Below, piece after piece: positions 3,275 to 36,254 of a DNA stretch of 36,254 nucleotides. Below the pieces are notes generated by a model that was given only the letters and a program-made list of their open reading frames with translations, was not told the DNA's origin and searched no databases. Both the position numbers and the translations under genes were made by a program. Source of the stretch: Helicobacteraceae bacterium (lineage in GTDB: Bacteria; Campylobacterota; Campylobacteria; Campylobacterales; SZUA-545); the NCBI GenBank assembly GCA_031288475.1, contig JAITRJ010000036.1, positions 1-36,254 on the forward strand, read 5' to 3'. The first letter of the stretch is position 1. Each line of letters starts with the position of its first letter.

Positions 3275-3934
3275 TTAGTTACAATCACCGACATTAGGCA
3301 CTAGGACAGCACCCCCATTGACAGAAGGAGGGCTTAACTGAATCGTCCCAGGGACCGGGTTGTACCCCCAGCACATCCCTGAATGGATCTTCGCGTTATC
3401 ATCGACAACGCCTAGGGATGCCGGACCCTTAATCACTGTTGTAGCTGTATTGACAGACATAGAAGAGGGGAATATGTCTCCAGCCAATGTCTGCCATTGA
3501 TCCCGGCCATCCGGCTCAAGCGCCAACGCCAAGACACCGTCACCAGTGCCTTGCACTCTCGCTGTTGTCTGCAGGGCGCCTGTGAGCGCGTCGGTGCTAA
3601 TCCCTACCGGATAACCCGTTTCGCTGCGATTCTGCTCTCCCGCGTTTATCCCCCCCCCGGAAGGAATAAGACCAAGCGAATAAATAGTAGCGTAGTACTC
3701 GTTTCCATCATTACCGAAGGTAGTGATATTGATGTCCCTTCGTATGCCCGCTGTCAACGCCTTGCCCCGAATAGACACAACCGCCGTCCGGATGGAGTCG
3801 ATGCCAGCATCCTCGTTGGCAATCATCGCGTCATCCTGAACGCCGGCGAACCTAGGCAGAGCCACCATTGCTAAAATACCCATAATAACGATGACGAAGA
3901 TAAGTTCGATCATCGTAAACGCTGTACGCTTCAT
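3275..3934 (-). CDS. Type IV prepilin-like protein (pseudopilin) with G9 tract
   Basis: A 219-residue protein starting MKRTAFTMIELIFVIVIMGI. This is a class III prepilin signal with the conserved Glu at mature position 5, and probable cleavage after Ala5 before FTMIE. The hydrophobic helix is followed by a globular domain ending with two cysteines (GMCWGY and VGDCN) that could form the pilin disulfide loop. The ORF track starts 69 bases upstream; I choose the ATG at 3934 because AAAGGAGG lies 6 bases before it and the signal fits. The protein would be processed by a prepilin peptidase and act in a pilus or secretion pseudopilus, but no assembly genes are nearby. A tract of nine G on the coding strand encodes the GGG of IPSGGGIN, so the gene may be phase variable. 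Confidence 0.85.
   Translation of the reverse strand: MKRTAFTMIELIFVIVIMGILAMVALPRFAGVQDDAMIANEDAGIDSIRTAVVSIRGKALTAGIRRDINITTFGNDGNEYYATIYSLGLIPSGGGINAGEQNRSETGYPVGISTDALTGALQTTARVQGTGDGVLALALEPDGRDQWQTLAGDIFPSSMSVNTATTVIKGPASLGVVDDNAKIHSGMCWGYNPVPGTIQLSPPSVNGGAVLVPNVGDCN
3650..3658 (-). repeat. Homopolymeric C9/G9 tract inside the pilin-like gene
   Basis: Nine consecutive C on the plus strand (nine G in the coding sense) near codon 95 of the pilin-like gene. Tracts of this length are known slippage sites in Campylobacter and Helicobacter. The gene is in frame in this sequence. Confidence 0.8.
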
Positions 3935-3962
3935 TGTGTACCTCCTTTGTTGAAGTGGGAGT

Positions 3963-14291: not shown

Positions 14292-14320
14292 ATCGTCTGA
14301 TCGCGCGGCGATCAGACGAT
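14292..14320 (-). terminator. Rho-independent terminator of the pse genes
   Basis: A perfect 13-bp inverted repeat (ATCGTCTGATCGC / GCGATCAGACGAT) with a 3-base loop overlaps the pseI stop codon. On the minus strand it is followed by TTTTCAAACACC. Confidence 0.7.
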
Positions 14321-15364
14321 AAGATCAAAAGATACGGCAGTTCCCCGCACAATGTCGCGGGCGGCTCTGCGCCCAACCACCAGGTTCAGCGTTTTTGGTG
14401 GCAGTCCATAACCCGGGCGGATTTTGCCTATATGATCGCGGCGGATTGTTTCGCCCTCTTTGAGATCGCGGATAAAGTACAGCGAACGCCTGAATATCAG
14501 GTTTCCACGCTCCATTTTTGATGGAGCGGATTTGCCTTCCCCCAGCGCGCAAAAGACCTCTTTTACTGCTGTCGAAAGGCGCTTAAACTCACCTGCTGTC
14601 GCTGAAAAACCGCTGTCTACGCCGCCGTTTTCGCGGCTGTCCGTAAAATGCTTTTCGATCACACCCGCGCCCAGAGCAACGGACGCGATTGCGGCGGAGA
14701 TTCCTTTTGTGTGATCGGACAGCCCTATAACCGTCTTGAATCGCCGCGCAAGCCGTTCAATCCGCCGCAGATTTGCCTCCCGGAGAGGAGTCGGATATGC
14801 GCTCACGCAGTGAAGCAGGATCGGCGCTCTGCCGCCCGCCTCAATTGCTGCGTTTACGCTCTCTCTGATTTCCTCCTCGTCAGCCATTCCCGTAGATATG
14901 ATAAGCGGCTTTCTGGTGGAGGCGGCGTAGCGCACCAGATCCAGATCGTTTATCTCGAAACTCGCAATCTTGTAAGCGGGCGCGTTGAGGTTTTCCAGCA
15001 GATCGACGCCGCTTTCATCAAATGGTGTCGAAAACAGCGTAATGCCGATCTTGCGCGCGCGATCAAACATAATCTTGTGCCACTCTGGCGGCGTCTGGGC
15101 GGTTTTATACAGATCGTAGAGCGTATAGCCGTTCCATAAACCGCCCCTGATGACAAACTCTTCCCGCGCGCAATCGATCGTCATCGTATCCGCGGTGTAC
15201 GTCTGTATCTTCACCGCGTCCGCGCCGCTCTTTTTCGCGATCTCAATCAGCCTTAAAGCGCGTTCCAGCGATCCATTGTGATTTGCGGAGAGTTCGGCGA
15301 TCAAATAGGGGGGGGACCCCCCCCCAATCTTGCGGTTATCTATCGAGATAGATAACCGACCCAT
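14312..15364 (-). CDS. pseI: Pseudaminic acid synthase PseI with G/C tract
   Basis: Condenses 6-deoxy-AltdiNAc with phosphoenolpyruvate to pseudaminic acid, the sugar that decorates Campylobacterota flagellin. The 350-residue product has a NeuB-type TIM barrel (PYLIAELSANHNGS, GADAVKIQTYTADTMTI, LIISTGMADEEEI, LSDHTKG, VIEKHFTDSR) and a C-terminal SAF/antifreeze-like domain from ~290 (RSLYFIRDLKEGE). It overlaps the end of the pseG-like gene by 29 bases. Codons 14-19 (GGGSPP) are written as a run of nine G, one T and eight C in coding sense. A single-base slip would truncate the enzyme after about 20 residues. The frame is open here. Confidence 0.93.
   Translation of the reverse strand: MGRLSISIDNRKIGGGSPPYLIAELSANHNGSLERALRLIEIAKKSGADAVKIQTYTADTMTIDCAREEFVIRGGLWNGYTLYDLYKTAQTPPEWHKIMFDRARKIGITLFSTPFDESGVDLLENLNAPAYKIASFEINDLDLVRYAASTRKPLIISTGMADEEEIRESVNAAIEAGGRAPILLHCVSAYPTPLREANLRRIERLARRFKTVIGLSDHTKGISAAIASVALGAGVIEKHFTDSRENGGVDSGFSATAGEFKRLSTAVKEVFCALGEGKSAPSKMERGNLIFRRSLYFIRDLKEGETIRRDHIGKIRPGYGLPPKTLNLVVGRRAARDIVRGTAVSFDLIV
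15308..15325. repeat. Adjacent G8-A-C9 homopolymers in pseI
   Basis: On the plus strand eight G, one A and nine C follow one another inside codons 14-19 of pseI. Both tracts are in the length range of known phase-variable contingency loci in Campylobacter, and the two tracts are complementary to each other. Confidence 0.85.
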
Positions 15365-16748
15365 CCTCGCCTCTCGCCTTTACAAACCGCAGCCCGTCAA
15401 AAACTTTGCAGGCGGCGGCGTTTGACGGCAGAACCTTTGCAGACAGCGGCACGTTGCCGAGCTGATTTACGAAAGTTTTTAACGCCAGCCCAAACGCCTT
15501 TTTACCGATGCCTCTGCTCCTCGCATAGTTGCTCAGCGCGAAAGATATCTGCCACTCGTTTCCGACACGCTCAAAACGGACAAATCCGACCGCAAGCGCC
15601 GCCTTGATCACGTAAAAGCGCGTAAAGGATCGATCGCTGAGCCAGCCGGTGAACCATTTGTGGTACTCATTCGGATCGATCGCGCTCAATCGTTGCATGT
15701 TGTCGCGTACGCATTTTTCATTCTCCAGATCGAAGAGCCACTTTTCGTCCGTTTCGGCAACCTCCCGCGCCGACAGCTCCGTATTTTCGCTCAACATCAG
15801 AATCTCCGCGACTCTCTGCGCGCCAAAGCCATCTACCAGGGCGCGCATCTTCGGAATAATCTCCGTTTTTACGCCGGCGCGCACGATCTCCTGCAAAGCC
15901 CGCGTGATATGATCCGTATCCACCCGATCGCGATAGCCCAGATACCTGATAAGCCCCCGTCTGTCAAGCTCTTCGGACAGCCCGCGCTGATTATCAGCAA
16001 TCGCCACAACGATGCTGAAAAGCCCCATAGCACACCGCTCGTAGCTTGTGGCTCCTCCGGCGCCGATTGCCAGATCGCATTCGTTCATCAGCGAGGCGAG
16101 GCTGGTCAGGTTTTCGTGAATGTGGATATTCCTGCCTTTTTTAGCCAGCTTGCGCACCATTTCCTGATGAACGCCGCTGGGTACGATCTCAAGCGATATA
16201 TCGGGGCGCCTGAGAGTAAGATAGGCGTCGATTGCCCTGCTCGTGAAGTTGTCCCTGTCGGCGTTGCCGAAATAGACAAATATCTTCTTGATCATACTTG
16301 TGCGCTCTCGCTTGATAATCATTGAGTACTCTGGCTGCAATAGGGCGTATCTCGTGCCCAAAAGCTGAACGCAGCGCTCGGGGACAAGCGTTTTATAGCG
16401 CTCGGCGCTCGCGTTCACGTTTTGATCGAGAAGATAATCCGCCATATGCTTTCTGTTCGCCAGATCGTCGATCACAACCACGCGCTTGCAGAAAACGTGC
16501 ATCTTGTTCTCAAACTCGTGATCGAGCGAGTACTGATCAACGACCAGATAATCAAACAGCTCGCTCACCTTGCTTGTAACGCTAAAACCGCTCTGGGTTA
16601 CGCGGTTGCGTAGGACATCGTCAATCGCGTCACACATAAAAACGGATTTTGCTCCGAGTTTGCGCAGCGCGTTTGCGAGGGTAAGGCAACGCATCAGATG
16701 CCCACTGCCAATCTCTGTCGAAGCGTCAGCTCTAAATAGGAATTTCAT
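15336..16748 (-). CDS. pseG: PseG sugar-nucleotide hydrolase fused to a GNAT domain
   Basis: A 470-residue two-domain protein. Residues 1-~325 are PseG, which removes UDP from UDP-2,4-diacetamido-2,4,6-trideoxy-beta-L-altrose. Marks include MKFLFRADASTEIGSGHLMRC at the start, YLVVDQYSLD, IFVYFGNADRDN and the UDP-binding loop DLAIGAGGATSYERC. Residues ~335-470 form a GNAT acetyltransferase-like domain with the acetyl-CoA loop RSRGIGKKAFG, resembling PseH, which N-acetylates the 4-amino sugar one step earlier. In Campylobacter and Helicobacter PseG and PseH are separate. PseB, PseC and PseF are not in this window. The start has no clear Shine-Dalgarno. Confidence 0.9.
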   Translation of the reverse strand: MKFLFRADASTEIGSGHLMRCLTLANALRKLGAKSVFMCDAIDDVLRNRVTQSGFSVTSKVSELFDYLVVDQYSLDHEFENKMHVFCKRVVVIDDLANRKHMADYLLDQNVNASAERYKTLVPERCVQLLGTRYALLQPEYSMIIKRERTSMIKKIFVYFGNADRDNFTSRAIDAYLTLRRPDISLEIVPSGVHQEMVRKLAKKGRNIHIHENLTSLASLMNECDLAIGAGGATSYERCAMGLFSIVVAIADNQRGLSEELDRRGLIRYLGYRDRVDTDHITRALQEIVRAGVKTEIIPKMRALVDGFGAQRVAEILMLSENTELSAREVAETDEKWLFDLENEKCVRDNMQRLSAIDPNEYHKWFTGWLSDRSFTRFYVIKAALAVGFVRFERVGNEWQISFALSNYARSRGIGKKAFGLALKTFVNQLGNVPLSAKVLPSNAAACKVFDGLRFVKARGEDGSVIYLDR

Positions 16749-27593: not shown

Positions 27594-28252
27594 TTGACTC
27601 TTCCGCCGATCTGCTGCTGAAACTGCACTCTATGAGGCTGATTAAGAGAGATCGCTTCCCCTTCTGGTGGCCTGGATATGGAACGTGGAGCGTACTGATA
27701 ACCGCGATTCTGACGCAGCAATCGCGGTGGCGCGGGGTTGAGCAGAGTATGGAAAACCTCTCCGCCGCGGGACTGGACTCCTGTCAAAAACTGGCAAGCG
27801 CCGATCCGGATGTTATCGCGCGGGCGATCTCGCCATCTGGATTGTACAATCAAAAGAGCCGTCGGATCGTAAAGCTGTTCAGGGCTGTGACAGCGGATTA
27901 CGGGTCGTTTGAAAACTTCGCGCGGCTTGTTACGAGAGAATGGCTGCTGGAAAGAGAGGGGATCTGGTACGAGAGCGCGGACTCGATTCTATGTTACGCC
28001 TGCAAGCGCCCCGTGATGGTGGCGGATCGCTACGCCGCGAAGCTGCTCGCGCTGCTGGGCAGAGAGACGGACGGGTACGACGAGACGCAAAGCCACCTTG
28101 CTGACGGCGTCAAGAACGAATTTAACCGCGTAAAAAAGGTTCTGGGGCTGAGTTTGGAAGCAACCTATGCCTATTTTCACGGAGCGATTGTAGAATTTAT
28201 GAAAGACAGGAAAGATATGGATATAAAAATCGCAGGGCTTTTGAGTGATTAA
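27587..28252 (+). CDS. magIII: MagIII-like 3-methyladenine DNA glycosylase
   Basis: A 221-residue HhH-GPD protein close to Helicobacter pylori MagIII, which removes 3-methyladenine. The matching blocks are ISPSGLYNQKSRRIVKLFRA, VTREWLLEREGIWYESADSI, LCYACKRPVMVADRYAAKLL and YFHGAIVEF. The catalytic Asp is in VMVADRY. The helix-hairpin-helix turn reads GIWYESAD, where the H. pylori enzyme, as I recall it, has GIGKESAD, so the DNA-contacting hairpin glycine and a lysine are replaced. No C-terminal iron-sulfur cysteine cluster is present. Start overlaps ymdB and end overlaps the protease gene. Confidence 0.88.
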   Translation: MVIDSSADLLLKLHSMRLIKRDRFPFWWPGYGTWSVLITAILTQQSRWRGVEQSMENLSAAGLDSCQKLASADPDVIARAISPSGLYNQKSRRIVKLFRAVTADYGSFENFARLVTREWLLEREGIWYESADSILCYACKRPVMVADRYAAKLLALLGRETDGYDETQSHLADGVKNEFNRVKKVLGLSLEATYAYFHGAIVEFMKDRKDMDIKIAGLLSD

Positions 28253-30854
28253 AAAAGCAAAACTGCTGCGAACAGCGGCGATTTTTCTGCTTCCTATCGC
28301 TCTCTTTCCGGTTGTGCCTGACGATGAGGAGTACTTTATAGCGAAAACCCAGTACGGGGCAATCATATACGCGCGGGGAGATGAAAATCTCTCTCAAAGC
28401 GCGGCGGCTTCGTGGCGCTTCCTGCGGGAGAGGTACGACAAAGAGTTCGGATACGATCTTGATGAACCAACGCTCATTCTCGCAAGCTCCAAAAATCAGT
28501 TTGCCAACGCGTGGGCGGGTTCAACCCCGCTTCTTTCAATGCAGTATTACGGCGGCGGCGCAGGTATGCTGGACTATTTCGGCTATGTCGACTGGATGGA
28601 AATGCTGCTGGCTCATGAGGGGGCGCATCTCTATCAGTTGGACAGCAAAAACGAGGTTATGTACGAACTTTTCGGACGGAATCATATGCCGCTTTTTGCC
28701 GGCATCCCCTTATGGACGTTTCCAAATCTTTTCCTGCCCGATCTTTTTCTGGAAGGCAACGCGGTATTTAACGAGACGCGCGTTACCGGCTGGGGGCGAT
28801 TAAACGGCGGCAGACACAAGGCACTTTTTCTTGTTCTCCTGAAAGCGAATCTGTTGGATACCGAGAGGGCGCTCAACAACCATATATTTTTCCCTTATAT
28901 GGAAGAGAAATATATCGTTGGAGGATATTTTCAGGCGTATCTCGCTTCTCAATACGGCGCTGATCGCGTAAACGGCTTTTTCAGGACAAACGGCAACCGC
29001 TTTATAAATCCGTTTCTGCTTAACAAAAGTTTCTACCAGCACTTCGGCGCCGATTTCAATACGCTGTTTGATCGGTTTATAAACAGCCACAGAGCGGACG
29101 CCGATCTCTTTGTCCTGCAAAAGGGAGAAAGCGTCTCAAAATCGCAGATTGACGCCCCTCTCGGAGGAGACGAGAATGCTCTGTTTATCTACGAAAGCGA
29201 CGGTAAAACATTCGCGGACATACTGATTCTCGATCGCCAAACGCTGAAGATAAAGCGCGTCCGCGGCAGCTTTTCAAGAGGGAAGCCATTCTGTTTTGAA
29301 GGGGAGTGCTTCACTGCCGCCGCTCTTTATACGTCGGCGGAGACGATCGAAACGTCACTGTTCGACAGGGACAGAGAGCCGCTTAAGTCCTTTAACGGCA
29401 AGGCGATAAACGATATAAGCGGGAAAAGAACGCTCTACCTCAAGACCAACGAAAGCTTCAAAAAAGCAGTTCTGTACGATCAAAACCGCAGAATAGGAGA
29501 AGTTGTCTCCTATGCGCTCTATGGATACGACGGCGCGGTTTACAGCGTTCGGTATGAAGAGGGTTCACGGGTTTTTTACAGAGGCGGCGATCGGCTGTTT
29601 TCCATCAAAACGGAGGCTTTTTTAAACGACGTTCTGCCAAACGGCGATCTGCTCTTCACCGCCCCAACCTTTAACGGGAACGGGCTTTTTATCTTTTCGG
29701 AAGGCGGGCTTTTGCGTCTTGGAAACGGCGATAACGTCATCGGCGCGAAGTGGGTAAGGGAGAATCTCTACCTGCTTCAGACAGTTACCGCCGATGGCTA
29801 CGAAACGCTGCTTGCCAGACTAGAAAAGAACAAGGATAAACCGACGCGGTTAAATTACGGGGGCGAAGAGGCGCTTGATTTCGCGAATCTGACGGACGAA
29901 ACGCTTGACGCCGTACCGTACAACGCCTTTGCGAATCTGCGTTTTTCATATTTTTATCCGTCAATTGGATTTTCGGACGCGGGGATGATCGGATCGGCGG
30001 ATTTTCTCTTTGTTGATCCGCTGGAGTTTAATACCTTGACATTGAGCTACGCTCATAACGCCGATGGCGAGGAGATCGGGCGGGCGGGCTACGAGAATCG
30101 GCGCTACCGTCTCTTTTACGGCGCGCAGGGCTATTTCAGCCCAGACAACGACAGCGGCGATAAAGACAAAAGAAAATTTGGCACGGACATACATATAGGC
30201 TACCTAATCGATCGGGATAACGTGAGCCAGATAAGCGCAATCGCGCGCAAGCTGTTCGACCCCAACGATAGAGATAACGCGCCGCTGATTGCCTCGATCC
30301 GATACGATTACGCCCTTTACTATCCGCTCGCGCCTGAAAACGAAACCGGCGTTTCGCTCTCGATCGGCGGCAGGCACAACGAGAGAAAATCGGAAAGAGA
30401 GTTCTCGTACGGCGCGAAGGCGGAGGCGCGGCAGCGGCTGTTTTCACAGCTCTATTTTTTGCTTGGGGCGAAATACTCCCGTTCGGACAGCTACTACGTG
30501 CTGCTGGAAGAATCACCAGCCGACATCGCTGACGAGATCAACTTTGAGCTTCTGCGCCTGCCTTACAGATACAGAACAGATCGTATCGTTGGCTGCAAAG
30601 CCGCTTTAAGCGCCGCGATCGACATGCCCGTTTACTCCTCCGTCATTCCAATCGGACTGCACCGGATAAAACCATCCGTCGCCTACGAACGGCTGGAGCT
30701 CGGCGAAATAAAATATCTGATTGAGGAAAAGAGCGCCACGGTGGAATTTGATATGCTTTTCACGCACCGTTTTGATTTTTCGCTGCGAGCGGCGTACGTA
30801 CATAACAGCGAAACCAGCGATAGCTGGATCGTAACGCTTGCCGCTGGATTTTAA
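28245..30854 (+). CDS. Outer-membrane zinc metalloprotease with beta-barrel C-terminus
   Basis: An 869-residue exported protein with an N-terminal signal (LLRTAAIFLLPIALFPVV). The gluzincin motif LLAHEGAHLYQ (HEGAH, an HExxH form) lies near residue 123, followed by a likely third ligand in FLEGNAVFNETR near residue 170. The middle third resembles a beta-propeller or jelly-roll of short repeated strands. The last ~280 residues alternate polar and hydrophobic residues with aromatic belts, and the protein ends SWIVTLAAGF, a terminal-Phe strand typical of BAM-inserted barrels. I infer a peptidase head tethered to an outer-membrane barrel; the substrate is unknown. GTG start overlapping magIII by 8 bases. 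Confidence 0.8.
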   Translation: MIKKAKLLRTAAIFLLPIALFPVVPDDEEYFIAKTQYGAIIYARGDENLSQSAAASWRFLRERYDKEFGYDLDEPTLILASSKNQFANAWAGSTPLLSMQYYGGGAGMLDYFGYVDWMEMLLAHEGAHLYQLDSKNEVMYELFGRNHMPLFAGIPLWTFPNLFLPDLFLEGNAVFNETRVTGWGRLNGGRHKALFLVLLKANLLDTERALNNHIFFPYMEEKYIVGGYFQAYLASQYGADRVNGFFRTNGNRFINPFLLNKSFYQHFGADFNTLFDRFINSHRADADLFVLQKGESVSKSQIDAPLGGDENALFIYESDGKTFADILILDRQTLKIKRVRGSFSRGKPFCFEGECFTAAALYTSAETIETSLFDRDREPLKSFNGKAINDISGKRTLYLKTNESFKKAVLYDQNRRIGEVVSYALYGYDGAVYSVRYEEGSRVFYRGGDRLFSIKTEAFLNDVLPNGDLLFTAPTFNGNGLFIFSEGGLLRLGNGDNVIGAKWVRENLYLLQTVTADGYETLLARLEKNKDKPTRLNYGGEEALDFANLTDETLDAVPYNAFANLRFSYFYPSIGFSDAGMIGSADFLFVDPLEFNTLTLSYAHNADGEEIGRAGYENRRYRLFYGAQGYFSPDNDSGDKDKRKFGTDIHIGYLIDRDNVSQISAIARKLFDPNDRDNAPLIASIRYDYALYYPLAPENETGVSLSIGGRHNERKSEREFSYGAKAEARQRLFSQLYFLLGAKYSRSDSYYVLLEESPADIADEINFELLRLPYRYRTDRIVGCKAALSAAIDMPVYSSVIPIGLHRIKPSVAYERLELGEIKYLIEEKSATVEFDMLFTHRFDFSLRAAYVHNSETSDSWIVTLAAGF

Positions 30855-35863: not shown

Positions 35864-36254
35864 ATTACGCTCCGATTTGCGGATCGCCGTGCAGCTTAGA
35901 CAAAACGGCGCAAACGAAATTATGCGAGATACGCGAAGGGGGGGGCGTTTATAAGCAAAACAACCTCCTTCTTCGTTAACTGTAGGCGTGTATTACGCCA
36001 ATTATTAATTAATCCAACGTCCTCCATCCAGTTGCTTTTAACAATCAAATTGGGGGATTGGAGACGACAATGTGTTGTTCCCGGCATTAACAGGTTGCGC
36101 ACCGTAGAGCCATCAGGCATACACCCCCCCCTCCCACGGCAGAGCTGACAGAGCGGCAGATACGAACCCGCTCCGCTGGCGCTGAATTGTCGTATCCAAG
36201 CATTCACGCGTGAATGCGGAGGACGTCTCCCTTATACCGTCTCTTTCGTGAATG
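35864..36254. other. Right-end stretch, no intact gene; G8/C8 tracts
   Basis: The minus ORF 35920-36207 (95 aa) has no recognised motif. It contains both a run of eight G on the plus strand (35938-35945) and a run of eight C (36124-36131), so it may be another remnant of a phase-variable surface gene. The window ends here and a larger gene may continue beyond it. Confidence 0.4.

Follow-up and report, generated by a model that had tools for sequence, protein, structure and literature searches.

Pilus phase variation in Neisseria involves poly-G tracts in pilC and in pilin-modification genes. Tracts of >7G are classed as hypermutable, with rates of 1e-5 to 1e-2 per division in other organisms, and Neisseria pilE varies by recombination (PMC4235727). 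In Campylobacter, poly-G tracts switch from a length of 8, and 9G is the most frequent length; the PhasomeIt authors proposed three consecutive glycines becoming 9Gs as one birth route for such loci and considered that rare loci are perhaps chance products that selection has yet to remove (PMC6321876). Campylobacter jejuni NCTC11168 carries 29 poly-G/poly-C tracts of 7 or more (PMC4965091). The tracts described here resemble the Campylobacter jejuni loci and the Campylobacter phasome (PMC4965091, PMC6321876) in repeat type, in lengths of 8-12, in numbers per genome, in the mix of coding and intergenic positions and in ON/OFF control through frameshift. They differ in that the genome has ~51% G+C compared to 30% in Campylobacter, that many tracts are longer than 12, that the set of a congeneric species includes a multi-copy family of RCC1-like lipoproteins, and that switching here is predicted from sequence. 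The homopolymer-associated genes of Helicobacter canadensis (PMC2823697) were described in a curated, cultured genome, whereas the present genome is a 71%-complete MAG. As in Neisseria, a poly-G tract lies in a pilus gene, where random reversible DNA change would alter pilus expression; however, the tract studied here is located in the middle of the ORF of a pilin subunit gene and not in a tip-adhesin signal peptide or a modification enzyme.

The window, that is, the whole stretch of 36,254 nucleotides that was analysed, is contig 37 of a MAG of 1,248,298 bases. Relatives of this genome in public collections are Helicobacteraceae and Campylobacterales MAGs, and its nearest congener (G002) yields an alignment identical to that of the public record Helicobacteraceae bacterium Cc175_bin116. 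The gene under study and its tract have the following features:

3278..3934, minus strand: prepilin-like gene, 219 aa, full-length in the assembly, type IV pilin / type II pseudopilin superfamily
3939..3945 (approximate), minus strand: Shine-Dalgarno-like AAGGAGG, read from the sequence, preceding the ATG at 3934
3650..3658, minus strand: G9 tract (coding strand), codons 93-95 GGG GGG GGG, encoding Gly93-95 of the pilin

The N-terminus of the product, MKRTAFTMIELIFVIVIMGILA, contains a class III prepilin signal (G/A-F-T-x-I/L-E) followed by a hydrophobic N-terminal helix. The protein scored above the cut-off of NCBIfam TIGR02532 and fell 0.1 bit short of the gathering score of PF07963 (N_methyl; E=2.1e-4, 21.1 bits vs 21.2). 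Furthermore, PDB matches over residues 3-70 gave type IV pilins as the nearest solved structures. We rejected an assignment as the major pseudopilin GspG, since TIGR01710 gave 30.6 bits against an equivalog cut-off of 88.85. The genome has three T2SSE assembly ATPase (PF00437) matches, two full-length and the third partial. The label 'prepilin-like' is correct, although it does not distinguish a type IV pilus from a type II secretion pseudopilus, and we infer a pilus function for the product. Its predicted fold had a mean pLDDT of 46, too low for use. Among possible silent pilin cassettes, one distant pilin paralogue was examined. Elsewhere in the window, an 869-aa ORF at 28245-30854 had no Pfam match.

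The original prediction of an in-frame G9 at 3650-3658 in this gene was confirmed. The plus strand carries exactly nine C, flanked by T and G, and the minus strand reads TCC GGG GGG GGG ATA (then AAC GCG) in frame within the ORF 3278-3934. The tract is therefore of the kind counted as a phase-variable poly-G repeat (a G/C run of 7-8 or more in an ORF or promoter), and a one-base change in its length switches the product: G9 encodes 219 aa, G8 encodes 95 aa because a TAA lies immediately 3' of the tract, and G10 encodes 112 aa ending in a foreign tail. Slippage would turn the pilin off, because both changes truncate it. The pilin aligns with that of the congener in frame both before and after the tract, as far as residue 206; therefore, G9 is the ON length and the assembled state is ON.

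A second nine-base tract had been reported in pseI, and this was found as described, at 15317-15325, as part of a longer double tract:

14312..15364, minus strand: pseI (pseudaminic acid synthase), TIGR03586 E=4e-136, above the cut-off
15308..15325, minus strand: G9-T-C8 double tract, pseI codons 14-19, GGG GGG GGG TCC CCC CCC (on the coding strand, G9 at 15317-15325, one T, and C8 at 15308-15315)

With a single base between them, the G9 and C8 runs make up a near-palindrome that could fold into a hairpin, and either run could slip. The start of pseI is overlapped by one 470-aa ORF (15336-16748) in which PseG, above the family cut-off, is fused to a weakly PseH-like GNAT domain.

Conservation was tested by comparing the stretches around the tracts of the studied genome and of the congener. 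Four tract sites were common to both, and three of them differed greatly in length (studied genome first, congener second):

TetR-type regulator: 10 and 10 bases
SDR-gene region: 21 and 8 bases
secreted or outer-membrane-like protein: 23 and 12 bases
region beside a queA-like gene (named by inspection only): 9 and 16 bases

Shared sites of very different length are the pattern that should be expected of mutable, maintained tracts. The tract of the TetR-family regulator is in frame and 10 bases long in each of the two species (L063:2988-2997 and L134:468-477), and the gene is a candidate phase-variable regulator or, alternatively, a candidate case of protein-level constraint. The pilin tract was not among the four shared sites. 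The congener's pilin orthologue, 64% identical by the first search, reads CTT GGG ACA AAC GCA at this position, i.e. a single GGG codon, plus a five-residue gap; the lone codon and the difference of five amino acids fit an expansion from GGG. The other pilin homologues sampled, from a second tract-rich genus and from free-living relatives, had no G/C run above 6. The tract is thus not conserved at the orthologous gene, conservation being a sign of a maintained locus that is not required of rare loci. Similarly, the pseI tract is missing from the congener, whose pseI is 89% identical and reads GGG GGG GCA TAC CCC CCT. Judged from these alignments, both tracts are young.

The original prediction had also placed the two tracts in a genome-wide set and proposed a search for G/C runs of 8 or more. 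We ran this search and found 44 such runs (14 of length 8, 9 of length 9 and 21 of at least 10, so that 30 reach 9 or more), along with 18 of exactly 7, so that the set was borne out. Runs of 5 and 6 numbered ~630 and ~89 genome-wide when scaled from a 210 kb sample of the MAG. From 5 to 7, the runs shrink ~5-7-fold per added base, and this trend predicts only ~3 runs of length 8, ~0.6 of 9 and ~0.1 of 10 or more. The observed numbers exceeded it with p ~6e-4 at length 8, where the expectation was set generously at 4.9, Poisson p ~1e-8 at length 9 and far smaller values at 10 or more; therefore, the surplus of G/C runs begins at length 8. A/T runs fell steadily with length and had no long tail.

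These counts bear on whether the loop glycines merely happen to be encoded by GGG, any change of length being of no consequence because it is too infrequent or too damaging. Such a coincidence would be in keeping with a lineage-specific insertion in a variable loop, and with the G8 tracts in housekeeping genes (glyA and a recG-like helicase gene, for example), where switching is implausible. A plain base-composition null, moreover, expects ~10 runs of 9 or more; however, its prediction for runs of exactly 7 is ~100 against 18 real ones, and it was rejected as poor because of this roughly five-fold over-prediction. Measured against the run-length trend, runs of exactly 9 are ~15-fold in excess. 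In addition, GGG makes up 16.5% of Gly codons, giving p ~0.004 for three GGG in a row per Gly3 run, yet the window's ORFs of at least 200 aa hold five Gly3 runs, and two of these, in the pilin and in pseI, consist of GGG alone. We therefore regard coincidence as unlikely.

Illumina contigs break at poly-G of 8+ (PMC4235727), and 12 of the 44 tracts lay within 250 bp of a contig end where 1 was expected (p 3e-10). Heterogeneous tract lengths, failed sequencing or repeats in the flanks may lie behind this clustering. Furthermore, both MAGs have G/C homopolymers of tens of bases at contig ends (L078:1-66, L144:1-90), which are very long tracts or else artefacts of sequencing, and the assembled lengths of the longest tracts are not to be trusted. 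Two 8-base tracts that had escaped mention in the earlier description are close to the right end of the window:

35938..35945, plus strand: G8 tract in no clear gene, 309 bp short of the contig end
36124..36131, minus strand: G8 tract, within a repeat that recurs on contigs C20 (tract of 8 bases) and C41 (tract of 11 bases)

This repeat occupies the right end of the window (36073-36254) and is 96% and 99% identical in C20 and C41, respectively, with G tracts of 8, 8 and 11 in the three copies. The breakage of contigs at poly-G, the clustering of tracts near contig ends and the homopolymers at those ends would favour a short-read miscall at the pilin as well, with a real majority length other than nine. 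However, the pilin tract is 3.6 kb away from the end of its contig, and at a length of nine the 219-aa frame is intact with homology on both sides. The length is credible because any off-by-one error would break this frame, and we consider a miscall very improbable.

The tracts had further been proposed to be contingency loci controlling surface structures. Tract genes were scored with a crude signal-peptide rule, using 36 G7 and A8 sites as controls, of which 5 were positive. In the congener, 12 of 32 tracts were at secreted, lipoprotein or outer-membrane genes by the rule (p=0.02), and 17 of 32 after start calls were corrected by hand (p=0.0006). The genes concerned include TonB-dependent receptors, glycosyltransferase-like and methyltransferase genes and about nine related lipoprotein genes. 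In the studied genome, the same rule gave 6 of 44 tracts, with no surface enrichment over the 5/36 controls. Tracts of 12 or more scored 4/10 by rule and 6/10 when a neighbouring cell-surface acyltransferase gene and a YD-repeat gene were added by hand, while those of 8-11 were not enriched (2/32 vs 5/36), the pilin being one of the two; several of these shorter tracts are in housekeeping genes or intergenic. The surface bias is thus clear in the congener, suggestive for tracts of 12 or more in the studied genome and absent for those of 8-11; by these counts it belongs to long tracts, and the pilin and pseI tracts are of the short class. The genome-wide set, the shared sites that differ in length and the congener's surface bias uphold the proposal in part, and the 8-11-base tracts of the studied genome do not follow it. 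The pilin and pseI make weak exemplars, as both tracts are absent from the congener and the remaining pilin homologues that were sampled also lacked one.

The congener's multi-copy lipoprotein genes, several of which have RCC1 repeats, carry a poly-C of 9-16 bases that follows the start region and precedes the signal peptide. These tracts are at L125:2913-2926, L127:291-304, L129:2532-2547, L136:1104-1112, L147:2502-2517, L148:2503-2518 and L150:319-331, and also in L124, where the gene has GLUG motifs, and L151. The tracts adjoin a conserved TTTTTTAACTAGATCGCT, and the copies vary in length and frame; these genes are a strong candidate for a phase-variable family. Three further tract sites were observed: an acyltransferase-SGNH gene is broken at a G8 (L062:2209-2216) into ORFs of 384 and 250 aa, which fits an OFF state; a C18 at L067:2991-3008 interrupts an ORF with a weak AlgX/SGNH-like match just ahead of a carbamoyltransferase gene; and a C10 (2981-2990) lies ~320 bp upstream of the start of a gene for a 1121-aa Cas9-like protein (L072:3312-6674).

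A selected contingency locus, in which the pilus is bet-hedged ON and OFF by the G9 as one element of a surface phasome that includes pseI, would account for a tract that lies in frame in a surface-type gene and cleanly truncates the product whether it gains or loses a base, and it accords with the concentration of the congener's tracts at surface genes (12/32 or 17/32 vs 5/36). However, the pilin tract is missing from the congener and from all sampled homologues, the pseI tract is likewise unconserved, and tracts of 8-11 in the studied genome are not enriched at secreted genes. In addition, the pilin tract is mid-gene, whereas the congener's clearest candidate switch genes have theirs between start and signal peptide. 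Selection of this kind is accordingly doubtful; switching of the pilin under selection would be possible, without backing from conservation.

A survey of tracts of 10 or more bases covered 60 genomes. The three genomes of the genus under study had 21, 33 and 24 such tracts, and seven genomes of the second tract-rich genus of the family had 24-52 each, while sampled members of five other genera of the family had zero. The rest of the order mostly had 0-2, save for a few families. In nine genomes, among them the 100%-complete congener and members of tract-free genera, no MutL reached the cut-off of its family. We rejected the absence of MutL as the cause of the tracts; it is at most permissive, because the tract-free genomes of the family are negative too.

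One reading is best supported by the tract and its reading frame, by what a one-base change does to the product, by the surplus of runs in the genome and by the lack of this tract in the congener: the G9 is probably a recent, lineage-specific, slippage-prone tract, and the pilin a candidate phase-variable gene of the known poly-G kind. Under this model, G/C tract expansion in the genome would have produced the G9 from a glycine codon that lies in a variable loop of this type IV-type pilin. A one-base replication slip would then put the pilin out of frame, cutting it from 219 to 95 (G8) or 112 (G10) residues with loss of the C-terminal half, and a further slip would restore the frame, the consensus of the assembled population being ON. 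As the genome holds many expanded runs, the pilin G9 could act as a random on/off switch. The tract may slip at an appreciable rate and slippage may switch piliation; G9 is near the lower end of the tract-length range, and the mutation rates are borrowed from other organisms.

More broadly, an undescribed phasome may exist in these uncultured Campylobacterales, in two genera and not in their five sampled sisters, in which the pilin, pseI and the sister species' RCC1-like lipoproteins switch by poly-G slippage and piliation is varied directly at the pilin gene; we offer this tentatively and think it unlikely to hold in full. If the G9 does switch, it would put a pilin subunit gene itself under direct ON/OFF control, and poly-G phase variation would then reach into an uncultured lineage of Campylobacterales. 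With two tract-rich and five tract-free genera in one family, the birth and loss of contingency loci become testable by comparison, and the pilin may illustrate a newborn tract, with one GGG codon in the congener and G9 in its relative.
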